Part shown: piece after piece, positions 40,521 to 62,200 of the stretch
Layout of the letters: the number at the start of each line of letters is the position of its first letter
How positions within the stretch are numbered: the stretch's first letter is position 1
Assembly: GCA_011620605.1 (NCBI GenBank)
Contig: WOYW01000014.1
Span: forward strand, 62,001 to 126,000
Direction: 5' to 3'
Source of the DNA: Bacteroidales bacterium
GTDB taxonomy: Bacteria > Bacteroidota > Bacteroidia > Bacteroidales > UBA932
Length of the DNA stretch: 64,000 nucleotides
Program-made: the position numbers and the translations under genes
The notes under the pieces: model-generated
Told to the model about the DNA's origin: nothing
What the model saw: only the letters and a program-made list of their open reading frames with translations
The model's database searches: none

Positions 40521-41909
40521 TCAATACCCCAGTACCTTTAACATAGATTTATAGGTCTGCTCCTTGGAAAACAATTTGGTGTAGTATTCCCCGTCTTCTT
40601 CACCTATGATGACCATTTTTGGGGCAGGCATCAGGCAATGCTGCACGCCTCCGAAGCCGGATATGGATTCCTGGTAAGCTCCCGTATTGAAGAATCCAAT
40701 ATAAAGCGGTTCCCCGTTTTCATTTTTGGGAAGGAAGACGGCATTGGCATGCGCTTCTGCATTGTAGTAGTCCTGCGAATCACAGGTCAGACCTCCCAGG
40801 AAAACACGTTGATAGGGTTCGTCCCATTTGTTGATGGGAAGCAGTATGAAACGCCGTTTGATACCCCAGGTGTCCGGTAAAGTAGTCATAAAGGAAGAAT
40901 CGATCATATACCACCTTTCCCGGTCGTTCTGTTGTTTGTCTCCCAGAACCTGGTAAATATTTGCCCCGCTTTCGCCTACCGTGAACGATCCGAATTCTGT
41001 AAATATGTCGGGTTCTTTTACATTACGGCTGGCACATATACTTTTGATCTGGGCAATTATCTCTTCTGTCATGTACTCATAATCGTAATCAAAAGAAAGA
41101 GAATTTCTTACCGGGAACCCTCCGCCAAGGTTCAGGGAGTCCAGGTCTTCGCAGAAATTCTTTAGGTCGCAATATACGTTCACGCACTTGGCCAGTTCGT
41201 TCCAGTAATAGGCATTGTCCTGGATCCCCGTATTGATGAAAAAATGGAGCATTTTGAGCTTGAACTTGGGGTTGCGTTTGATGTATTTGTGGTAAAAGGG
41301 GACTATGTCACTGTAACGGATCCCCAGCCGGCTGGTGTAAAATTCAAATTTGGGTTCTTCTTCCGCTGCTATGCGAATACCTATTTTACATTCATCATTT
41401 ACCGTTTTGTCCAGGGCTTCTATTTCAGGCATATTGTCCAGTATGGAAATGGTGTTTTTCCAGCCCGAATTCATAAGATTGGCAATGTTTTCGACATATT
41501 GCTGTTTCTTATACCCGTTGCAGATCACGTACAAGTCCTTGTCCACGATCTTTTGTTCGTAAAGCGACTCTATCAGGTTAATGTCAAAAGCCGAAGATGT
41601 TTCAATATGTATGTCGTTTTTTAACGCTTCTTCCAGTACAAATGAAAAATGGGATGATTTTGTACAGTAACAGTAATGGTATTCCGCATCGTAATCGACC
41701 TTGGCCATGGCTACGTTGAACAACCTTTTTGCTTTTTGTATCTGTTTACTTATCTGGGGCAGGTAATAAAACTTTAAAGGAGTTCCGTATTGCTGGATCA
41801 GATTCATTACGGGTATATCATGGAACAAAAGTTCCCCGTCTTCAACCCGAAATTCTTCCTGCGGAAAATCAAAACTTTGCTGGATCAGATCAATGTACTT
41901 ATTCTTCAT
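40521..41909 (-). CDS. PLP-dependent arginine-decarboxylase-like enzyme (fold type III)
   Basis: A 462-residue alanine-racemase-fold decarboxylase. The PLP lysine is in CYCTKSSHFSF, the phosphate-binding glycine loop is LNLGGGFPV, and the C-terminal barrel has FNTGAYQESISGFGG; the cysteine-aspartate pair of the active site is in GGLTCDSQDYYN. The length and sequence match the short Bacteroidota proteins called arginine decarboxylase, which feed agmatine into polyamine synthesis. Diaminopimelate or carboxynorspermidine decarboxylase are related alternatives but are usually shorter. A -7 element lies at 41969-41976 and the SpoU gene follows by four bases. Confidence 0.82.
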   Translation of the reverse strand: MKNKYIDLIQQSFDFPQEEFRVEDGELLFHDIPVMNLIQQYGTPLKFYYLPQISKQIQKAKRLFNVAMAKVDYDAEYHYCYCTKSSHFSFVLEEALKNDIHIETSSAFDINLIESLYEQKIVDKDLYVICNGYKKQQYVENIANLMNSGWKNTISILDNMPEIEALDKTVNDECKIGIRIAAEEEPKFEFYTSRLGIRYSDIVPFYHKYIKRNPKFKLKMLHFFINTGIQDNAYYWNELAKCVNVYCDLKNFCEDLDSLNLGGGFPVRNSLSFDYDYEYMTEEIIAQIKSICASRNVKEPDIFTEFGSFTVGESGANIYQVLGDKQQNDRERWYMIDSSFMTTLPDTWGIKRRFILLPINKWDEPYQRVFLGGLTCDSQDYYNAEAHANAVFLPKNENGEPLYIGFFNTGAYQESISGFGGVQHCLMPAPKMVIIGEEDGEYYTKLFSKEQTYKSMLKVLGY

Positions 41910-41968
41910 CTTTGTAATGTAAGTGAGTTACTTTTACTAAAATTATCCAATGTAAACCAATCGGATTG

Positions 41969-41976
41969 CAAATATA
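41969..41976 (-). promoter_or_regulatory. Candidate -7 element of the decarboxylase gene
   Basis: The minus strand reads TATATTTG, an exact TAnnTTTG match, 59 bases before the start codon. No TTG is visible at the expected distance upstream. Confidence 0.4.
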
Positions 41977-42017
41977 AAGGAATATTTACATGTAGTATAG
42001 TATTTGTCCTTTTTTTC

Positions 42018-42025
42018 TACTTTTG
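42018..42025 (+). promoter_or_regulatory. Candidate -7 element of the BamA/TamA-like gene
   Basis: TACTTTTG matches TAnnTTTG and ends four bases before the ATG at 42030, so the predicted transcript would be leaderless or nearly so, as proposed for the glycosyltransferase gene at 157. Confidence 0.4.
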
Positions 42026-42029
42026 TATT

Positions 42030-44288
42030 ATGCGCAAAAGCCGGGGATTTCTCTTCATATCAGCCTTCACTTTATTGCTGAATTTTATGTTATCTGGTTG
42101 TTCAGCAACACGTTACGTTCCTGATGGAGAATACCTTTTAAAAAAGAATAAGGTTGAAGTTGTTCCAAAAAAGATCGTACCGGTATCTGCCCTGACTCCG
42201 TATATCCGGCAAAAGCCCAATACCAGCATTGTTTTTGGATGGAAAGCATTCCTTAATATTTACAGCCTGAGCCCGGACAAAGACAACGGATGGAGCCGGT
42301 TTCTGCGCAGACTGGGAGAACCTCCCGTTATCTTTGATCCGTTGCTGATAGATCTGAGCAAGCGGAATATGAACAATTACCTGACATCGCTGGGGTATTA
42401 TTTCAACACCCTTACAGATTCTGTCACGTACCATAACCAAAAAGCCACCGTTCATTATACCGTCATACCCGGCAGGACTTACACGGTGGATTCCATTGCC
42501 CTGAGCCGGGCTGACACCAACCTGGCACGGTTGTATGACAGTCAACTGGACGGGTCACTGCTTCAGACAGGAGACAGACTGTCTTCGTTGACGCTGGAAA
42601 AGGAAGCTGCCCGCATAACCACTGTGATGCGTAACAACGGCTATTACAATTTTAACAGGAGCCTGGTGTCGTTCAGGGCAGATACGCTGGAACGGGACGG
42701 GACGGCAGCCCTGGAAGTAGTCTTACCTGCAGACACCTCCCAAAAACCTTACCGCATAAGAGAGATCAATGTGTACCCCGGTTATGATCCCATGCAGGCT
42801 GTTATGGACTCTTCCTATTTTTTGCATATGGATACCCTCAATTACAGGGATATGGTGTTTCATTTAAAGGGCAAACCCACTATCCGTCCGCGGGTGATCA
42901 GAAACATGAGTTACATACGACCGGGAGAACTGTACGACGAATCAAAAGTCAAAACGACCTATGACCGTTTTTCCTATATCAGTCTTTTTAACGGAGTTAC
43001 GTTGCTTTTTGATGAAGTCCCGGGGTCACGGCAACTGGATACTGCTCTGGTAGATTGTACCATACGCCTGAGCCCCGGAAATTCTCAGGGGTACAAGCTG
43101 AACCTGGAAGCGTCCAGCAACTCGAACGGCCTGATAGGGATCTCTCCGGCTTTGTCCTATTACCACAAAAACATATTCAGGGGAGGGGAGTGGCTGACGT
43201 TGGGATTTATGGGAAATTTCCAGTTTAAGCTGAAAGATCCCACCCGTGCCACCGAATTGGGCGCCTCTTTGTCCCTTTCTTTTCCCAAAATGCTTTTCCC
43301 CATAAGCCAGCGGATTTTCCGCGGACGTGTTCCCCGCACGGATGTCTCGGCAAGTTACAATTTCCAATCGCGTCCGGAATATACGCGGAATATCGTTTCC
43401 ACCACATTCGGTTATATCTGGAGTATGGGTGACAGATTTCACTACACGGTGAATCCGCTGCGGCTGAAACTGGTAAAACTCTACAATATGAGTCCCGGTT
43501 TTTTGGTTTCCCTGAACGATCCTTTTTTAATAGATACGTACAGGGACCACTTTGACCTGGGATTTTCTTCCATTTTTTATTACACCAGCGATAACGTTAC
43601 TGTTCACCGCGACAGCTGGCATTATGTAAGGGTAGGGCTTGAATCGGCCGGAAACCTGCTGAGTGCCTTCAATCCCCTGATGCGGACCGATACCACCGGA
43701 AGTCATACGATAGGAGGGATCGCTTATTCCCGGTACATTAAGGCCGAACTGAACACGGGATATACATTTATCCGCAATGCGCATCAGCTGGCGGGACGTT
43801 TTTATGCCGGAATAGGTGTGCCCTACGGAAACGCTTCCACACTTCCCCTGGAGCAAATGTTCTTTGCCGGTGGTGCCAACAGCCTGCGCGGCTGGCAGGC
43901 TAGAACGGTAGGTCCCGGGTCCATGCCGGTAGATTCCACGTTTACCATTCCCAACCAGGCCGGGGACATCCGGCTGGAAGTCAACCTGGAGTATCGGTTC
44001 CCTCTCTTTTGGAAGCTGGAAAGTGCGATCTTTGCCGATGCCGGGAATATCTGGACATTGCCCCGTGAAGAAGCAGCGGAAGCGGGCGTTTTCCGGTTCA
44101 ATAACTTTTACAAAAGCATAGCCATGGATGCAGGCCTGGGGGTCCGTGTTAACTTGGATTTTGTCATCCTGCGCCTGGACATGGGCATGATAGTAAGAGA
44201 TCCGGTGAAACAGGCATGGGTACCCGTTTCCCAATGGCTCAGGCGGGATAATTATACGATCCAGTTTGGTGTGGGATACCCGTTCTAG
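42030..44288 (+). CDS. Lipid-anchored BamA/TamA-family outer membrane protein
   Basis: A 752-residue protein of the Omp85 group. The leader ends LSGC with Cys24, so the N-terminus should be lipidated, as in Bacteroidota TamL. POTRA-like domains cover about 40-390 (VHYTVIPGRTYTVDSIAL is typical). The barrel follows, with the conserved loop-6 motif SLRGW (in ANSLRGWQARTVGPG) and a C-terminal phenylalanine after VGYP. The family inserts or exports outer-membrane proteins; TamL pairs with TamB, which is not in the window. The open frame extends 80 codons upstream, but only the ATG at 42030 gives a proper lipoprotein leader. It shares the CTAG tetranucleotide as stop codons with the convergent NagB-like gene. 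Confidence 0.92.
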   Translation: MRKSRGFLFISAFTLLLNFMLSGCSATRYVPDGEYLLKKNKVEVVPKKIVPVSALTPYIRQKPNTSIVFGWKAFLNIYSLSPDKDNGWSRFLRRLGEPPVIFDPLLIDLSKRNMNNYLTSLGYYFNTLTDSVTYHNQKATVHYTVIPGRTYTVDSIALSRADTNLARLYDSQLDGSLLQTGDRLSSLTLEKEAARITTVMRNNGYYNFNRSLVSFRADTLERDGTAALEVVLPADTSQKPYRIREINVYPGYDPMQAVMDSSYFLHMDTLNYRDMVFHLKGKPTIRPRVIRNMSYIRPGELYDESKVKTTYDRFSYISLFNGVTLLFDEVPGSRQLDTALVDCTIRLSPGNSQGYKLNLEASSNSNGLIGISPALSYYHKNIFRGGEWLTLGFMGNFQFKLKDPTRATELGASLSLSFPKMLFPISQRIFRGRVPRTDVSASYNFQSRPEYTRNIVSTTFGYIWSMGDRFHYTVNPLRLKLVKLYNMSPGFLVSLNDPFLIDTYRDHFDLGFSSIFYYTSDNVTVHRDSWHYVRVGLESAGNLLSAFNPLMRTDTTGSHTIGGIAYSRYIKAELNTGYTFIRNAHQLAGRFYAGIGVPYGNASTLPLEQMFFAGGANSLRGWQARTVGPGSMPVDSTFTIPNQAGDIRLEVNLEYRFPLFWKLESAIFADAGNIWTLPREEAAEAGVFRFNNFYKSIAMDAGLGVRVNLDFVILRLDMGMIVRDPVKQAWVPVSQWLRRDNYTIQFGVGYPF

Positions 44289-46192
44289 AGTTTCATCCCT
44301 TCCCGGTAAACCCGGAAAAGCTCTATGGCCTGGTACTCGGCCATCCCCAGTTTATCGTATAGAACGGCGGTATTGTGGTTGCGTTCCTCGGCCCTTTTCC
44401 AGAATTCGCGCGGGTCGTTCCCGGGGAACATGGCCGGATCTTTCTGGCTCTGGTGACGGAAAATGGCATTTCGTTTAATAACCACTTCCTCCGGACTTAA
44501 GGGAACGGCCATATCTACATCGGCTACGTCCCATTCCTGCCAGGCACCCCGGTACAGCCACAAACGGCAGTCTTTCATCCAGGGCCTGTCTCTGAGCTCT
44601 TCCATAGCTGCCAGAATAGCCATATAGCAAACACGGTGCGTCCCGTGCGGGTCGCTCAGGTCACCGGCAGCAAAGATCTGGTGGGGTTTGATACTTTCCA
44701 AAAGATCGCAAATGATCTGTATATCTTCCCGGGACAATGCTTTTTTCTTGACACCTCCGGTTTCGTAGAAGGGCATTTCCAGGAAATGGACGTGCTCGGG
44801 TTCTATTCCCAGGTAATCACAGGCAGATTTGGCTTCTCCCCGGCGGATCATGGTCTTTACCTGGCGAATGGCCAGTGTATCCGGTTCCCCGGGTTTTTTG
44901 TTGGCCATATCCTTGCGGGCCTGTTTGAAGATGGCTTTTGTTTTTTCCTCATCCAGCCCGTATACAGGGGATATTTCGTGCAGAAAATCCAGGAAACGGG
45001 TGACTTCGTGATCAAATACGGCAATATTGCCTGAGGTATGATACGCTATATGTAATATGTGTCCCTGCTCAGATAACCTTGCCACGGTTCCTCCCATGGA
45101 GATCGCATCGTCATCGGGGTGTGGACTGAATACGATCACACGTTTGGGATAGGGCAGAGCTCTTTCCGGACGGGTAGAATCGTCGGCATTGGGTTTTCCC
45201 CCGGGCCACCCGGTAATGGAATGCTGTAAGAAATTGAATGTATCAATGTTGATCTTACTGAAAGGTCCGCGTTCGGTGATCAGGTCACTCATCCCGTTAT
45301 CGTTGTAATCTCGCGCAGTAAGTTTCAAAATGGGCTTGTCCAGGTGACGGCACAGCCAGAATACGGCTTTCCGTGTTAGTTCTTCCGTCCAAATGCAGGG
45401 TCCTGTAAGCCAGGGTGTTGCCACACGGGTTAATTCAGCCGATGCGGCCTGGTCTATGATCACTTCTGTCTGGGCATGGTTTTGCAGGTAACTGGACGGA
45501 TTTGTCTCGTCCACTTTGCCTTCCACCATTTTCTTAACGGCTTTGGCTTCTCCTTCTCCCCAGGCCAGGTAATAAATGGACCGGCTCTCCAGTATGGTTT
45601 GGATGCCCATGGTAAGAGAATAATTGGGAACGTAATCCACTCCAAAAAATTCACTGGCAGCCGATATACGGGTATTGGTATTGAGTGTGATCAAACGGGT
45701 CCGGGAACTGTAATGGGAACCGGGTTCGTTTGTGCCCATACCCGCAGTGATCAATACGTCTATGCCTCCGTAAGAGGCTATCTTGTTTTCAAAATCTGTA
45801 CAATGACGGGCAACCTGGGACCGGGGAACGTTTCCGTCCAGGTAATGTACCTGGGTAGGGGGGATGTCCAGTAAGTCAAAAACGTATTCTTTCAGAAAAC
45901 GGTAGTGAGATTGTATTTCGTCCTTATGCAGCGGGTAATATTCATTGATGCCGAATACCACCACATTCTTGAAACTTCTCCCGTTTTCGTATGCCTTGGC
46001 AAAAAGTTCGAAGACGGGGATCATGGCAGGCCGGGAAGATAACCCCAGCACCAGTTTTTTCCCCTGTGATTCTTTTTGTGTGAGTAACGTAAGGATGTTT
46101 TCCACCAGGTAACCGGATGCTTCCAACTGGTCATTATAAATAAAAACAGGTAAGTTTTCGTACCTTCTGCTAAAATCGTAGTTCACTGCCAT
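44285..46192 (-). CDS. NagB-like domain fused to a PIG-L/LmbE deacetylase-like domain
   Basis: A 635-residue two-domain protein. The N-terminal half (about 10-290) is homologous to glucosamine-6-phosphate deaminase; the C-terminal half (about 345-620) is a PIG-L/LmbE zinc deacetylase-like domain with HPDDD (358-362) and HGTH (516-519). Such fusions are known in Bacteroidota and are usually annotated nagB. Here the deaminase active site looks destroyed: the catalytic Asp of the MDEY motif is Asn83 (INEY), and the GxxGHIxFNEP loop is shortened to GMGTNEP (151-157), losing the catalytic Asp/His region. The deacetylase-like motifs are intact. It lies two bases after kdsA and probably works on amino sugars, perhaps as a sensor or deacetylase. 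Confidence 0.88.
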   Translation of the reverse strand: MAVNYDFSRRYENLPVFIYNDQLEASGYLVENILTLLTQKESQGKKLVLGLSSRPAMIPVFELFAKAYENGRSFKNVVVFGINEYYPLHKDEIQSHYRFLKEYVFDLLDIPPTQVHYLDGNVPRSQVARHCTDFENKIASYGGIDVLITAGMGTNEPGSHYSSRTRLITLNTNTRISAASEFFGVDYVPNYSLTMGIQTILESRSIYYLAWGEGEAKAVKKMVEGKVDETNPSSYLQNHAQTEVIIDQAASAELTRVATPWLTGPCIWTEELTRKAVFWLCRHLDKPILKLTARDYNDNGMSDLITERGPFSKINIDTFNFLQHSITGWPGGKPNADDSTRPERALPYPKRVIVFSPHPDDDAISMGGTVARLSEQGHILHIAYHTSGNIAVFDHEVTRFLDFLHEISPVYGLDEEKTKAIFKQARKDMANKKPGEPDTLAIRQVKTMIRRGEAKSACDYLGIEPEHVHFLEMPFYETGGVKKKALSREDIQIICDLLESIKPHQIFAAGDLSDPHGTHRVCYMAILAAMEELRDRPWMKDCRLWLYRGAWQEWDVADVDMAVPLSPEEVVIKRNAIFRHQSQKDPAMFPGNDPREFWKRAEERNHNTAVLYDKLGMAEYQAIELFRVYREGMKL

Positions 46193-46194
46193 AT

Positions 46195-47010
46195 TTATTC
46201 CTGAATATCTTGTTTTGTGATTATGTAAGTTTGCCGGAAAGCAATTATTTTACGGACCAGAACCTCCATTTGGTTCAGGGGTAGCATGTTGCTTCCGTCG
46301 GACAGTGCTTCCGCCGGATTGGGATGCGTCTCTATGAACAAACCGTCGGCACCGGATGCAACCCCGGCAGCTGCCAGCGTTGAGATCATTTGCGGATCTC
46401 CGCCCGATATGCCTCTTGTCTGGTTGGGCTTCTGCAGGGAGTGGGTAACATCCAGTATCACAGGCACATGCAGTTTTTGCATTATTGGGATACTGCGCAC
46501 ATCAAATATCAAGTCAGTATAACCGAACTGGGCGCCTCTTTCGGTCAACATGATCTTCTCCCGGATGGCCCCAAACTGAAGCAATTTTTCCACAACAAAG
46601 CGCATCTGTTCCGGAGCCAGGAATTGTCCTTTTTTGACGTTGACTTTTTTCCCCGTCTGGGCAGCGGCCTTTAACAGGGATGTCTGCCGGCATAGAAAAG
46701 CCGGTATCTGGATAATGTCCACATCGTACTCGGCTGCCATTAAGGCTTCGTCGGGAGTATGCACGTCCGTTGTGATCTCTACGCCAAAGTATTCTCGGAT
46801 GTTTTGCAGGACTTCCAGCCCGTTCCGGTCACCGATCCCGGTAAAGGAATCTATTCGGGTCCGGTTTTCTTTCCGGTAAGAAGCTTTAAAAATAAGAGGA
46901 ATGCCGTACTTTTGGGTAATTTGTAAAAGTTTTTCGGCCGTTTCCATGCAGATCTTTTCAGATTCTACGACACAGGGACCGGAAATAAGGAAGAAACCCT
47001 GGAGATCCAT
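46195..47010 (-). CDS. kdsA: 3-deoxy-8-phosphooctulonate synthase
   Basis: A 271-residue TIM-barrel enzyme that condenses PEP with arabinose 5-phosphate to give Kdo 8-phosphate. ISGPCVVES at 9-17 has cysteine (Cys13) at the position that separates metal-dependent from metal-independent enzymes (Asn in E. coli), so this is the metal-dependent class. KASYRKENRT, EITTDVHTP, LTERG and DVTHSLQKP are further conserved stretches. It lies between rarA and the NagB-like gene with gaps of 37 and two bases. Together with kdsC it indicates lipopolysaccharide synthesis. Confidence 0.95.
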   Translation of the reverse strand: MDLQGFFLISGPCVVESEKICMETAEKLLQITQKYGIPLIFKASYRKENRTRIDSFTGIGDRNGLEVLQNIREYFGVEITTDVHTPDEALMAAEYDVDIIQIPAFLCRQTSLLKAAAQTGKKVNVKKGQFLAPEQMRFVVEKLLQFGAIREKIMLTERGAQFGYTDLIFDVRSIPIMQKLHVPVILDVTHSLQKPNQTRGISGGDPQMISTLAAAGVASGADGLFIETHPNPAEALSDGSNMLPLNQMEVLVRKIIAFRQTYIITKQDIQE

Positions 47011-49761: not shown

Positions 49762-51360
49762 ATGGGAAAACGAGACAGGGAAATTCTGGAGAATGTACTA
49801 ATAGAAACGGTGGCCGCCGAGGGTAACGCGCTGGCTCATGTCAACGGTAAAGCGCTGTTTGTACCTATGGCCGTTCCGGGAGATATTGTGAACGTACAGG
49901 TCACGCACAAGAAAAAGAATTATATGGAAGGATATATTCTGGAAATGGTAAGCCCTTCCTCCATGCGCCTGGAACCGTTCTGCAGCCACTTTGGGGATTG
50001 CGGAGGTTGCCGCTGGCAGCCCATACCTTATAATAAACAGTTGGAATTCAAGCAACAGCAAGTCATAGATCAGCTGACCCGCATAGGCAAACTGGAGCTT
50101 CCCCCGGCAGCACCCATTATGGGCTCGAAAAAAACCATCAGGTACCGCAACAAGCTGGAATTCACCTTCTCCAATAGCCGTTGGGTGCCGTTTGAAGAGC
50201 TCCGGCAGGAAGCTGGTGCTCCCCTGCCGGGATCCCTGTCTGCAAAAACCCCAGCACCCGGGGCCGCTCCCCTGCCGGGTTCCCAATCTGCACCGGATAC
50301 TGCACCCGGGGCCACTTCCTTCACGAGGTCCGAGTCCGCTCAGGCAGCGGCACCCGGTAGCGCTCCCCTGCCCCCACCCCTGCTTCCGCCGCTGGCGTCT
50401 CAGTCCCCTGCTTTGGGATTCCACGTCCGGGGCCGGTTTGACAAGGTGCTGGACATTGAAACATGCCATTTGCAGGAAGAACCGTCCAATGCCATCCGCG
50501 TGGCGGTCAGGGATTATGCCATTGAAAAAGGTCTGTCCTTCTTTGACCTGCGGCAACAGACCGGTTTCCTGCGCACCCTGATGATCCGCATAACCCTGAC
50601 CGGTGAAGTAATGGTAGTTGTGGTATTTGCCCACGACAAACCCGATGCCAGGGAAGACGATACGGCGCGTTTTGCGTTGCTGGACTATCTGAAACAAGCG
50701 TTTCCGCAGATCACATCCCTACATTATGTGATCAATACCAAACGCAACGACAGCCTTCCGGACCAGGAAGTGATCCATTACGCCGGAAAACCCTATATTG
50801 TGGAAACCATGGAAGACCTGGAATTCCGCATCGGCCCAAAATCCTTCTACCAGACCAACAGCCGGCAGGCCCTGCGTATGTACCAAAAGATCAGGGAATA
50901 TGCAGATCTTCAGGGAGATGAGACCGTTTACGACTTCTACACGGGAACAGGGACCATCGCCCTGTTCCTGGCCCGGCATTGCCGCCGGGTGACAGGCATT
51001 GAATACGTCCCGGAAGCCATCGACGATGCACGGAAAAACGCCTCGGCAAATAACATTGAAAACGTACGTTTTTATGCCGGGGACATGAAGGATGTGCTGA
51101 CGCCGGATTTCATTGCTGCAGAAGGCCATCCCCGTGTGGTGGTGCTGGATCCGCCGCGCGCAGGGGTGCACGAAAACGTGCTGAAAGTGCTCCTGGAGAC
51201 GGCCCCGGAAAAGATCATCTACGTGAGCTGCAACCCCGCTACCCAGGCGCGCGACCTGGCCCTGCTGCAACCCGCCTACCGGATCACGCACGTGCAGCCC
51301 TTTGATATGTTTCCACACACGCACCATGTTGAAAATATTGTTGTTGTTGAAAAAAAATAA
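49762..51360 (+). CDS. rlmD: 23S rRNA (uracil-C5)-methyltransferase with a repeat insertion
   Basis: A 532-residue RumA/RlmD-type methyltransferase. An N-terminal TRAM domain (about 10-65) precedes the 4Fe-4S ligands CSHFGDCGGCRW (Cys74, Cys80, Cys83) with a fourth cysteine in IETCHL. The SAM motif is VYDFYTGTGTIALFLA and the catalytic cysteine is near residue 490 in YVSCNPATQARDL. It should methylate U1939 or U747 of 23S rRNA. Between LEFTFSNSRW and LGFHVRGRFDKVLDI, which normally lie about 15 residues apart, sit about 70 Pro/Ala/Ser-rich residues made of 16-residue repeats. The frame stays open, so the gene is probably functional. Confidence 0.93.
   Translation: MGKRDREILENVLIETVAAEGNALAHVNGKALFVPMAVPGDIVNVQVTHKKKNYMEGYILEMVSPSSMRLEPFCSHFGDCGGCRWQPIPYNKQLEFKQQQVIDQLTRIGKLELPPAAPIMGSKKTIRYRNKLEFTFSNSRWVPFEELRQEAGAPLPGSLSAKTPAPGAAPLPGSQSAPDTAPGATSFTRSESAQAAAPGSAPLPPPLLPPLASQSPALGFHVRGRFDKVLDIETCHLQEEPSNAIRVAVRDYAIEKGLSFFDLRQQTGFLRTLMIRITLTGEVMVVVVFAHDKPDAREDDTARFALLDYLKQAFPQITSLHYVINTKRNDSLPDQEVIHYAGKPYIVETMEDLEFRIGPKSFYQTNSRQALRMYQKIREYADLQGDETVYDFYTGTGTIALFLARHCRRVTGIEYVPEAIDDARKNASANNIENVRFYAGDMKDVLTPDFIAAEGHPRVVVLDPPRAGVHENVLKVLLETAPEKIIYVSCNPATQARDLALLQPAYRITHVQPFDMFPHTHHVENIVVVEKK
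50212..50412 (+). repeat. In-frame 48-base degenerate tandem repeat in rlmD
   Basis: Residues 151-217 of RlmD comprise about four imperfect 16-residue units: GAPLPGSLSAKTPAP, GAAPLPGSQSAPDTAP, GATSFTRSESAQAAAP and the start of a fourth, GSAPLPPP. The DNA period is 48 bases and GC-rich, consistent with slippage or unequal recombination followed by drift. Confidence 0.75.
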
Positions 51361-51430: not shown

Positions 51431-53125
51431 ATGAACACAGAAGCATCAATAACCGGCATCAACGGCACCTCCGGCACGAATAGCGAGCCGGCCACCACCA
51501 TTTGCGCTCCGGCCACCACCATCTGCGCTCCGGCCACCCCGCACGCCGTTGGGGCACTGGCCCTGATCCGCATGAGCGGGCAGCAAGCGCTGGAGATTGC
51601 CGGGAAAGTGTTCCATTCGGCAGCCTGCCCGGACCTGACCCAAAGCGAAGGCTACCGCACCTACTTCGGGCGTGTGACCGACTCGGCAGGGGAACTGCTG
51701 GACCAGGTGCTACTGAGCGTTTTCCGCGCCCCCCACTCATTCACCGGCGAGGACAGCGTGGAGATCTCGTGCCACGGATCGCTGTACATCCAGGATACCC
51801 TGCTGCGCACCCTGGTGGAAAACGGCGCGTTGATGGCCGGTCCCGGGGAATTCTCGCAACGTGCCTTCATGAACGGCAAGATGGATCTGGCCCAGGCCGA
51901 GGCCGTTGCCGACCTGATCGCCTCGGAAAACCGAACCTCCCACAAACTGGCCATGGACCAGATGCGCGGCGTCTTTTCGCAGGAACTGTCCTTATTGCGG
52001 TCCCGCCTCCTGGAACTGGCTTCTTTGATGGAACTGGAATTGGATTTTGCCGAGGAGGATGTGGAGTTTGCGGATAAGACCGAATTGCACCGCCTTGTGG
52101 GGTCACTGCTGGAACGCATCGGGAAGCTATGCGATTCGTTCCGGATGGGTAATGTCATGAAAAAAGGTGTACCGATAGCTATTGCCGGGGTTGTAAATGC
52201 CGGGAAATCAACGCTATTGAACGCACTGCTGGGTGAAGAAAAAGCGCTGGTTACACCTGTGGCCGGCACTACGCGCGATATCATAGAAGACGTACTTGTA
52301 GTGGACGGGATCCCGTTCCGGTTCATAGATACGGCCGGGTTGCGTTTCATTGGTGATGTGGATGAGTTGTCACAGGAACATATTGAGAAGCTTGGCGTGG
52401 CACGTTCCCTGGAAACCATACGCTCGGCGGCCGTTTTGATGCTGGTTATGGACGCCTCCAGGCCCGATACCTACACGGAAAGCCTGCAATCTGTCCGAAT
52501 TAACGACCTGTTGGGCAAAGCACATCCGGTGATACAGCCAGGATCCTTCTTAGGGAGCCAACCGGGAACTCCCTTAGGGAACCAACCGGGAACTCCCTTA
52601 GGGAGCCAACCGGAAGGCCTGCAATCTTTACGGAAATACAAGAAAGAACATATCTTGTTTGTAATCAATAAAATTGACCTAGTGGACAACAAAGATGTTG
52701 CATTGGAGCATTTTATGAATACTTTGCGTAACTATATTGTTACAAATAGTTTGAATTTGAATGTTTATGGGGAAGTCAGGCCAAGTGAAAATGCGGCTAT
52801 TAACAACGGGCAGTATTCCATATTGCCGGTATCAGCGGCCAATAACGATGGTATTGAAGCTATTAAACAAGCTTTAGTTGGGATGATCCGGCCTGTACTG
52901 GATGAAAATACCGTTATGCTCACTAACCTGCGTCACTACCAGGAACTTAGCGCTGCCCGGGAAGCCCTGGAACGCGTTCGCGAGGGCCTGGAAGCCAGCC
53001 TTAGCGGCGACCTGCTCACCCCCGACCTGCGCCAGGCGCTGCACCACGTCGGCAGCATAGTGGGTGAGATCACCCCTGACGACATACTGGGTGAGATTTT
53101 CGGGCGCTTCTGTATAGGTAAGTAA
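51431..53125 (+). CDS. mnmE: tRNA modification GTPase MnmE with insertions
   Basis: MnmE works with MnmG to place the (carboxymethyl)aminomethyl group on U34 of certain tRNAs. The N-terminal folate domain (TICAPATPHAVGALALIRMSG), helical domain and embedded G domain are clear: G1 GVVNAGKS near 253, the TTRD G2 region, DTAGLR, and NKID near 411. The C-terminus ends FCIGK, as required. At 564 residues it is about 100 longer than usual. The TICAPAT segment is duplicated at 23-29 and 30-36, an eight-residue repeat array is inserted at about 374-398 in the G domain, and a further extra stretch lies between NKID and VSAANN (about 415-455), where the DNA turns AT-rich. The frame is intact. Confidence 0.94.
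   Translation: MNTEASITGINGTSGTNSEPATTICAPATTICAPATPHAVGALALIRMSGQQALEIAGKVFHSAACPDLTQSEGYRTYFGRVTDSAGELLDQVLLSVFRAPHSFTGEDSVEISCHGSLYIQDTLLRTLVENGALMAGPGEFSQRAFMNGKMDLAQAEAVADLIASENRTSHKLAMDQMRGVFSQELSLLRSRLLELASLMELELDFAEEDVEFADKTELHRLVGSLLERIGKLCDSFRMGNVMKKGVPIAIAGVVNAGKSTLLNALLGEEKALVTPVAGTTRDIIEDVLVVDGIPFRFIDTAGLRFIGDVDELSQEHIEKLGVARSLETIRSAAVLMLVMDASRPDTYTESLQSVRINDLLGKAHPVIQPGSFLGSQPGTPLGNQPGTPLGSQPEGLQSLRKYKKEHILFVINKIDLVDNKDVALEHFMNTLRNYIVTNSLNLNVYGEVRPSENAAINNGQYSILPVSAANNDGIEAIKQALVGMIRPVLDENTVMLTNLRHYQELSAAREALERVREGLEASLSGDLLTPDLRQALHHVGSIVGEITPDDILGEIFGRFCIGK
51488..51545 (+). repeat. 21-base tandem repeat at the 5' end of mnmE
   Basis: Units start at 51488, 51509 and 51530 with CCGGCCACCACCAT; the first two are identical except one base and the third is partial. 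They duplicate the conserved TICAPAT segment in frame. Confidence 0.85.
52550..52621 (+). repeat. 24-base tandem repeat in the mnmE G domain
   Basis: Three units start at 52550, 52574 and 52598 with TTAGGGA; the first two differ at one base and the third diverges at its end. They encode LGSQPGTP, LGNQPGTP and LGSQPEGL, an eight-residue repeat inserted in a surface loop before the NKID motif. Confidence 0.9.
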
Positions 53126-59267: not shown

Positions 59268-62200
59268 TTAAAAAGTTAAATTTAACCCAATGGTGACGCT
59301 CCTGGCAACAGGATACGTTCCCCAGTCAATGCCGTTGGCAATATCACCTTCAGCCGCAGAGTTCGTACTCACAGTCATTTCAGGATCAAGCCCCGAATAA
59401 TTGGTAATCGTGAAGAGGTTTGTTCCCGACAGGTATAAACGTATGTTGTTAATATGCCATTTCTTGGTATTCGGAATGGTATAACCCAGTTGAACGTTCT
59501 TAAGCCTGAAATAGGATCCGTCTTCCAGGAATCTTGTGGAAGCCCTTACGTTATTGGCCTTTGCTGCCCAGGATGCACGCGGCTGGGTATTGGATGTACC
59601 TTCACCGGTCCAGTGCTCATTGTAATACCTTTGGGTAACATTGAATCCGCGGTAGAATCCTTCAATATCATAATTCACCTGCGAAAAGATCTTTTGTCCG
59701 AATGCTCCCTGGAAAAACAATGAAATGTCAAATCCTTTATAATCTCCGGATATATTCAAACCAGTTGTTACCATAGGAATAGAACTACCTGCATAAACCC
59801 GGTCGTTGGCATCGATGATGTTGTTGCCATCCTGATCAACGTATTTTACGTCACCCGCCTTGATATTCTTTCCCTGGTAGGCCGAGGTCAGGACTTCCAT
59901 CTCGTTTTGGAAGATCCCTGCCATTTCATACAGGAAAAAGGAACCTATGGGGTAACCAGATTCTGTTTTTGTAGCATAGACACCTGTATCTACCCTTCCA
60001 CCGTAATAAGGAAATTCCAGCTCCCGTACCTGGTTGTATAAATAACCGGCATTTAACGAGATATTGAACCCACCGTCATTGAATTGCCTGCGGTAGAATA
60101 TTTCCAGGTCCACCCCGGTATTCAATACGTTTCCGGTACTGTTGAGGTACGGAGGACCTGCCAGACCCGAAGAAGGTGGCAATGATGCAGGCAACAGCAT
60201 GTCTTTGGTCGTTTTATAATAATAATCCAGGGTTATACCAAAAGTGTTCCCAAAGAATTCCATGTCTATCCCCGCATTGAATTGACTGCTGGTCTCCCAT
60301 TTAAGATCTTCATTACCAAGAAGGGACTGGGCAAAACCGTCGTAACTGTTCCCTCCAAAAGTATAGTAATAATTAGGAGTAAACCGGTCCAGATAGGAAT
60401 AAAGTGGAATATTCTGGTTCCCAATAGCACCATACCCAACACGGATCTTCAGTTTGTCAATGTTATCTGCCTGTTTCATGAACTCTTCCTCTTCCATGTT
60501 CCATCCCCCGGATACAGAATAGAATGTTCCCCAACGGTTTCCCTGGCTAAACCGGGAAGAACCGTCCCGACGAATGATCCCGGACAGGTAATATTTCTGC
60601 TTGTAATTATAATTGACATTGGCAAAAAATGACAAGAGACTGGAAGACCATTCGGTTTGGTTATTGTTCTTTTTAGTAGTTCCCAGACCCAGGTATACGA
60701 AATTCGGATCTGCGTTGGTAAATTCGCTTTCACTGGCGTACAAACCCGTACCTGTATTCCTTATGACTTCACCTCCCAGCAACGAGGTGATGTTGTGACT
60801 CTCTCCAATTGTAATGCTGTGATTCAAGGTGGTATTAACCGTCCAGGTGTTCTGTTTCACCGTGGAAACATCCAGGTTGTTGGTACTATTGATCCTGTTG
60901 GCTGTTCCCCATGTCTTGTTAAACACCCTCATTTCGGTATCGTTGTAGTCGGTACCGGCCGTTGCTTTAACAAAGAAGTTGGCTGGCAGTGTAAGAAGTA
61001 CATTCCCTGAAACAAGCAGGGATTTAATTTTTCTTGTTCTGTCAGTGTTGACACACAATCCTTCGGGACTGTAACCGTCACCGAAAAACGAATTATATAC
61101 CGAATTGCCGTAATATTCAGAAGGCAGATCCACAAACTTCTCGTTTTCATCGTAAACGGGGATGGCCGGATTCCTAAACAGGGCATACCTGACCACACTG
61201 CCCCCTTCGCCGGCATATCCGTCTCCCGAACTGGAAACCAGACGGTTATTTGAAAAACCGCCACTTACGTTCAGACTAACTTTCAGCCAGTCTTTCATAT
61301 CTGAAGAAACGTTGGAACGCATATTATACCTGTTGTAATCCGTTCCTTTGATGATCCCATCCTGCTTGAAAAGGGTTCCGGAGATCAGGTATTGTGTTCT
61401 TTCGTTTCCACCGCTGAATGAAAGTTCGTGTGAATGAATGGGAGCAACCCTGAAAATTTCTTCCAGGTGATTCACATCGGGAAAATCCTGTACCCAGTCT
61501 CCCTGGATCAATTGCCGTTTTACAATAGACGCGGCATTATCCGTGGCTGCCGCCTGGTTGTATAACTCGATGTATTGCTCTGTGTTGGCCATGGGTGTTA
61601 GCCTGCCGTGAAACTGGTTTCCCAATTGGGCATTGTAACTAATCCTGGCTTCTCCGGTCCTTCCGCTTTTTGTCGTAATAAGAATTACTCCGTTGGAAGC
61701 ACGCGAACCGTAAATGGCTGCCGAAGAGGCATCTTTTAGCACGGTCATGTTCTCAATTTCGTTGGGGGAAATGTTGTTCAGGGCGCCTTCCTGGGGAATA
61801 CCGTCCACGATATAAAGAGGTTCGTTACTGGCATTAATGGAGCCTACACCACGGATCCTGACGGCAATAGGCGATCCGGGGGCTCCTGTTTGCGTTGCTA
61901 CGTTCACACCGGCCACACGACCCTGCAATGCCTGTTGGGCCGAGGCTACCGGTGTTTTTGTAAGGTCCTTGTCTTCCACTTTACTTATAGCTCCCAGTAC
62001 ATCGCGTTTTTTCTGTACACTGTAACCCACCACAACCAGTTCATCCATAACCATGGATTCCTGCTCCAGAGTAATATCCAGCGTTGTCTGTTCTGTCACC
62101 AGGATTTCTTTGGCAGTAAAACCGATGTATGAAATCCTCAGGGTACTGTTCTGCGGTACGGTCAGATTGAATTTTCCGTCAATATCTGTCGTCGTTCCGC

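Follow-up and report, generated by a model that had tools for sequence, protein, structure and literature searches.

Why should a bacterium keep a glucosamine-6-phosphate deaminase (NagB) domain that lacks its catalytic residues, joined to a deacetylase-like domain that retains its own? The question is raised by a fusion gene (P0001) at 44285–46192 of the window, that is, of the whole stretch of 64,000 nucleotides analysed here (positions 62,001 to 126,000 of contig WOYW01000014.1 of a Bacteroidales bacterium). The gene and all its parts lie on the minus strand. Its open reading frame (ORF) of 635 aa has no internal stop, and the product matches the family NF002557/PRK02122, "glucosamine-6-phosphate deaminase-like protein", with 872.7 bits (cut-off 384) over residues 8–629, sharing with the other members a two-domain layout along the whole length. 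Pfam domains PF01182 and PF02585 were found at residues 26–240 and 353–529, respectively. The protein can be divided into a catalytically degenerate NagB-fold half (residues 14–255, 45428–46153), recognized by its PF01182 score of 39.8 bits and its predicted fold; a linker (residues 256–348, 45149–45427) with many invariant columns; and an LmbE/PIG-L half (residues 349–633, 44294–45148), recognized by its predicted fold and a PF02585 score of 72.6 bits, above the gathering cut-off of 28.2. The fusion protein does not reach the cut-off of TIGR00502, the NagB family proper (161.8 versus 236.9 bits), and an identity as 6-phosphogluconolactonase was rejected (TIGR01198, 32.2 bits against a cut-off of 124.45). 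TIGR00221, the family of the N-acetylglucosamine (GlcNAc)-6-phosphate deacetylase NagA, is absent among its NCBIfam matches up to E 1. The protein is thus not recognizable as a homologue of NagA; only a functional replacement of that enzyme is proposed below: the same reaction by an unrelated sequence.

A HMMER alignment with the NagB of Escherichia coli (1cd5) sets INEY of the fusion against NMDEY, and AGMGTNEP against GGVGNDGHIAFNEP. An alignment of 135 rows repeats both changes beside L001 (GGVGPDGHIAFNEP), the canonical single-domain NagB that this genome encodes, confirming the loss that a sequence-only reading of this DNA had proposed. The position of Asp72 is occupied by Asn83 (45944–45946), as that reading had it. 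The shortened loop (45722–45745) is without Asp141 and His143 and keeps Glu148 as Glu156, and the flanking stretches GGID, PGSH and SRTRLITL, which had been called intact, are all present. Further changes affect the pocket: SRPA stands at the TGGT position, 41–44 in E. coli (46025–46036), Ser180 at that of Arg172 (45653–45655), Glu215 at that of Lys208 (45548–45550) and Ile at that of Lys160, while the Arg158 and Glu73 positions are conserved. We take Asp72 and Asp141 to be catalytic, and Arg172, Lys208 and the 41–44 loop to be phosphate ligands. His143 has been described as catalytic, and Lys160 as part of the allosteric site (PMC4008608).

The claim that the shortening removes both Asp141 and His143 is correct in relation to E. 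coli, but for Asp141 it does not single out this protein: Asp is found at that column in none of the 289 fusion rows, where Thr, Asn or Ser mostly takes its place (where the loop is deleted, the alignment dictates which letter falls there), and the NagB of Bacillus subtilis carries Asn at this position. As judged from the alignments, it is the absence of His143 and Asp72 that is informative, that of Asp141 not being specific. No conserved His or Asp that might replace the lost residues was found in or beside the loop in the alignment. By its residues, then, the NagB half cannot be a standard deaminase, and we regard the loss of deaminase function as near certain.

In the LmbE half, both motifs expected of a PIG-L/LmbE protein are present: HPDDD (His358–Asp362, 45107–45121) and HGTH (His516–His519, 44636–44647). 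They are conserved in all 104 fusion rows without His143, so that the description of this domain as intact still stands. The HPDD and HxxH residues presumably serve as metal ligands and base. The fusion is the only PIG-L match in the window's genome, which is 94.5% complete.

The predicted structure of the fusion (44 sequences; predicted local distance difference test, pLDDT, 82.7; predicted template modelling score, pTM, 0.71) shows a NagB half that by its fold still belongs with NagB, matching the E. coli enzyme 1dea (Z 33.8, 245 residues aligned, root-mean-square deviation, rmsd, 2.0) and the B. subtilis enzyme 2bkv (Z 33.5, 236 aligned, rmsd 1.4). It differs from both in the deleted loop, the Asp72-to-Asn change and the altered phosphate pocket. 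The model of an intact-type relative (L073, from Marinigracilibium pacificum), which is weaker (pLDDT 77.2, pTM 0.48) and served for the fold match alone, matched 1dea with Z 36.9 (248 aligned, rmsd 1.6). The predicted LmbE half matched BshB 6ull (Z 20.4, 210 aligned, rmsd 3.3) and the diacetylchitobiose deacetylase structures 3wl3 (Z 19.9, 224 aligned, rmsd 3.0) and 3wl4 (Z 19.6, rmsd 2.9), all of which share the fold at about 20% identity but lack the fusion to NagB and the conserved linker. The PHPDD motif of 3wl4, an archaeal enzyme, aligns with the fusion, the aligned region stopping before HxxH. When the LmbE half was used to look for solved relatives, the four retrieved were all diacetylchitobiose deacetylases, and a search of solved structures by sequence returned no chain spanning both halves, the longest of the 18 being 289 aa.

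How widespread is the decay? Our collection comprises 289 fusion rows, or 275 after a de-duplication that is imperfect (the window's protein remains twice, as P0001 and L002). Entry to the alignment required more than 480 aa (400 for a later set) and clear similarity, and broken genes are therefore uncounted; the fusions of at least seven of the 121 fusion genomes of our phylum sample (G164, G167, G207, G246, G258, G270 and G278) are unclassified. Asp72 and His143 are both present in 182 of the 289 rows and His143 only in 3, whereas 33 have a full-length loop without His143 and 71 have the loop deleted. The deletion is found in 61 of the 275 de-duplicated rows, from many separately assembled records, and chance as well as an error of sequencing or assembly was rejected on these grounds. 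Among 147 NF002557 members from outside the window's order (118 fetched and 29 of L083–L112), His143 is present in every one and Asp72 in 146, in contrast to the window's protein, which has neither of the two nor the loop. In this sample the decay is confined to the window's order. The loop deletion is, on the sequences compared, the mark of a Bacteroidales clade, and the Asp72-to-Asn change, seen in 11 distinct proteins, that of the window's genus; a separate Asp72-to-Asn change occurs in L308, a fusion from outside the order that retains the loop. A single sequence could not reveal that the change is common to a large clade. Records titled Symbiothrix and Azobacteroides carry loops such as LDGRGQIGANEP, and Asp72 is still present in 44 of the 71 loop-deleted rows. 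Comparison of these relatives suggests a stepwise loss, in which His143 would have gone first, then the loop, and finally Asp72 and Lys208, these two only in the lineage of the window's genus.

The window's genome encodes a canonical single-domain NagB elsewhere (L001, 415 bits to TIGR00502), and the distribution of such enzymes was compared with the state of the fused half. The order was sampled with 198 genomes, 43 of which have a fusion above the cut-off. Canonical NagB was defined as a separate short frame scoring above 200 bits (above 300 bits in the phylum sample), and a NagB half without His143 or without Asp72 was considered degenerate. A canonical NagB is present in 23 of the 24 genomes with a degenerate half and in 3 of the 19 with an intact one (Fisher p 5.6e-8, kinship ignored). 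In the window's order, loss of the deaminase residues of the fused half goes with a stand-alone NagB. On a tree of the linker and LmbE half (60 rows: the 43 order fusions and 17 family relatives), the degenerate trait needs at least four changes. Within the genus, all 13 genomes have canonical NagB and 11 have the fusion, the two without it being 79% and 82% complete.

NagA, on the other hand, was found above the TIGR00221 cut-off in none of the 13 genus genomes, which yielded three partial matches (E 5e-4 to 6e-6), and a second search, queried with L143, a NagA from the same family, found none at E 0.001; this disfavours a missed NagA in the genus. GH20 is present in 12 of the 13. Across the 198 genomes of the order, TIGR00221 and the second query (at E 1e-10) agreed on which 15 have NagA. 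In the phylum sample (296 genomes), among the matches listed, NagA occurs in 29 of the 121 genomes with a fusion, compared to 17 of the 25 that have canonical NagB but lack the fusion (uncorrected p 6.6e-5). We take the "NagB" of the chitin locus of Flavobacterium johnsoniae to be a fusion of the NF002557/PRK02122 family. Attempts to express that gene in E. coli failed, and its role was therefore left open (PMC5127042). In the available text of PMC5583593, alternatives are given for AgaS/AgaI, NagB and NagK, and none for NagA.

Decay is also seen in the opposite direction. A catalytic position of the LmbE half is changed in 7 of 181 distinct NagB-intact fusions (L120, L215, L252, L287, L289, L290 and L292), and in six of the seven genomes concerned there is either NagA or another fusion whose LmbE motifs are intact. 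With motifs such as HPADD, RPADD/HGTR and NGTH, these proteins are a mirror image of that of the window.

Our preferred reading is that the window's protein is probably a deacetylase of GlcNAc or GlcNAc-6-phosphate that replaces NagA, the dead NagB domain serving as fold or scaffold; from sequence comparisons we infer the substrate, the replacement and the scaffold role alike. The ancestor would have been a Bacteroidota NagB–LmbE fusion whose N-terminal half deaminated glucosamine-6-phosphate and whose C-terminal half deacetylated GlcNAc or GlcNAc-6-phosphate. The separate canonical NagB would now perform the deamination step, the intact LmbE half being the best candidate for the deacetylase in NagA's place, and the dead NagB fold was most likely retained as a structural partner of that half. 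More tentatively, and with slightly less than even confidence, we propose that Bacteroidota NagB–LmbE fusions supply the GlcNAc-6-phosphate deacetylase that is missing from many genomes without NagA, that their halves decay in turn (the deaminase where there is a separate NagB, the deacetylase where there is NagA or a second fusion), and that the deacetylase of the window needs its dead deaminase scaffold.

Several observations weigh against these proposals. After correction for kinship the link with NagB is weak, coming down to four independent pairs (about three one way, none the other and one tie; median p 0.25). One order genome whose fusion is degenerate (G408) has no NagB, and another (G436), counted among the 16 intact-fusion genomes without NagB, has a distant one (146.8 bits). 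Outside the order, six genomes among the matches listed pair canonical NagB with an intact fusion, and a rule that a stand-alone NagB always causes decay of the fused half was rejected for this reason. As for NagA, the difference within the order (6 of 43 fusion genomes versus 5 of 16 with NagB and no fusion) is not significant (p 0.15), and an argument for its replacement from the order alone was rejected. Eleven of those 16 genomes have NagB but neither NagA nor such a fusion; three of them (G361, G389 and G482) have a second, more distant one. Over all 198 order genomes NagA is not rarer with the fusion (6 of 43) than without it (9 of 155). At E 1e-30, TIGR00221 was silent in the control B. 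subtilis, which we assume to have NagA, so a divergent NagA may be missed. One genome with an altered LmbE motif (G146, with L215) yielded neither NagA nor a second fusion. Finally, the window's gene is placed behind kdsA, outside any GlcNAc cluster.

This placement is the basis of a different explanation, that the protein was recruited to envelope synthesis, its LmbE half deacetylating a lipid A, lipopolysaccharide or nucleotide-sugar intermediate alongside kdsA, with GlcNAc breakdown abandoned. The gene directly upstream (46195–47010, also on the minus strand), which from its sequence we take to be kdsA, is separated from the fusion gene by a 2-base gap that suggests a single transcript. In a set of 80 loci selected for their similarity to the window's protein, a BLAST match to this gene recurs directly upstream in 45 of 53 loop-deleted loci with the 1 kb or more of upstream sequence needed for the test. 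The 23 other loci that could be so tested all lack it. The flanks examined (up to 6 kb; 55 loop-deleted, 8 other degenerate and 17 intact loci) contain no GH20, ROK or NagB match in the loop-deleted class. The position of kdsA means that an envelope role may exist, yet we consider it unlikely. Eight of the 53 testable loci have no adjacent kdsA, and the shared position may reflect vertical inheritance alone. Intact fusions, too, seldom have GH20 nearby (2 of 17 loci, with 2 of 8 for the other degenerate class), ROK being found at three intact and no other degenerate loci. A NagP-like transporter flanks 8 of the 55 loop-deleted loci, the counts being 2 of 8 for the other degenerate class and 4 of 17 for the intact one; the two transporters tested scored best against NagP without reaching its cut-off (280 and 455 versus 625 bits) and passed the cut-off of a glucose/galactose transporter subfamily. 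Moreover, with NagB in the genus, GH20 in nearly all of its genomes and NagA not found, a GlcNAc-6-phosphate deacetylase is wanting there.

Could the NagB half instead be a functionless passenger in decay, the linker and LmbE half alone being of importance? In the loop-deleted class its divergence is about twice that of the LmbE half (ratio 2.0, compared to 1.06 in intact fusions; 2.15 and 1.29 for close pairs). However, the frame, rightly noted from the sequence as full length, is under purifying selection: for the NagB half, linker and LmbE half, the median ratios of nonsynonymous to synonymous rates (dN/dS) in the genus are 0.077, 0.037 and 0.052, respectively, with dS saturated and 10–11 of 36 pairs without a value. 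Of the three parts, the linker evolves most slowly in the genus as in the degenerate classes (linker/LmbE distance ratio 0.55–0.67, compared to 0.94–1.02 in intact fusions). Constraint on the NagB half is weaker but real. Its NEPGS and TR motifs are invariant and its predicted fold is intact, and all 43 above-cut-off matches in the order start at profile position 24 or earlier, none being without a NagB half. We give the passenger explanation as little credence as the envelope one. The sequence-only reading had offered the NagB half as a sugar-phosphate sensor or a scaffold for the deacetylase-like half. A sensor regulating the deacetylase would be compatible with the retained fold and Arg158, and GlcNAc-6-phosphate allosterically activates E. 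coli NagB (PMC4008608), but we consider it improbable because the TGGT loop, Arg172, Lys208 (now Glu) and Lys160 are all changed; the scaffold part fared better, in so far as the predicted NagB fold is intact. Least probable is that the NagB half is still a deaminase through other residues. Glu148 and Glu73 are retained, Asp72 persists in many loop-deleted relatives, and a His stands shortly after NEP in the window's protein. In other relatives with the loop deleted, however, that His (of PGSH) is replaced by Pro, Tyr, Ala, Gln or Thr; no conserved His or Asp in or beside the loop substitutes for His143, Asp72 is Asn in the genus, and every genus genome searched has a canonical NagB.

If the LmbE half is a working GlcNAc-6-phosphate deacetylase, as we favour, a missing pathway step of Bacteroidota without NagA would be accounted for and a misleading family annotation corrected: the NCBIfam name reads "glucosamine-6-phosphate deaminase-like", yet many members from the order are, by their residues, not standard deaminases. 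These fusions would also form a natural series in which one half of a bifunctional enzyme turns into a pseudoenzyme while the other stays. No description of a NagB–LmbE fusion was found in the open-access literature searched, which is not proof that none exists.

The order contains a second, more distant NagB–LmbE fusion family of about 780 aa (L181–L190; for example L187:933-3278, minus strand). L187 scores 206 bits against NF002557, below the cut-off, and the sole translated member of this family retains GPDGHIAFN and PHHDD. A CBM9_2 gene (L016:7920-8663, L015:9152-9901 and similar) flanks 32 of the 55 loop-deleted loci and is not found beside the window's gene. In the window itself, a convergent ORF on the plus strand (41790–44288) shares 4 bases with the end of the fusion gene. 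Farther away, an ORF that we take to be MnmE-like (51431–53125) contains tandem repeats of 21 and 24 bases at 51488–51538 and 52549–52613, and its neighbour, presumably TrmA-like (49762–51360), also has a Pro/Ala-rich stretch.

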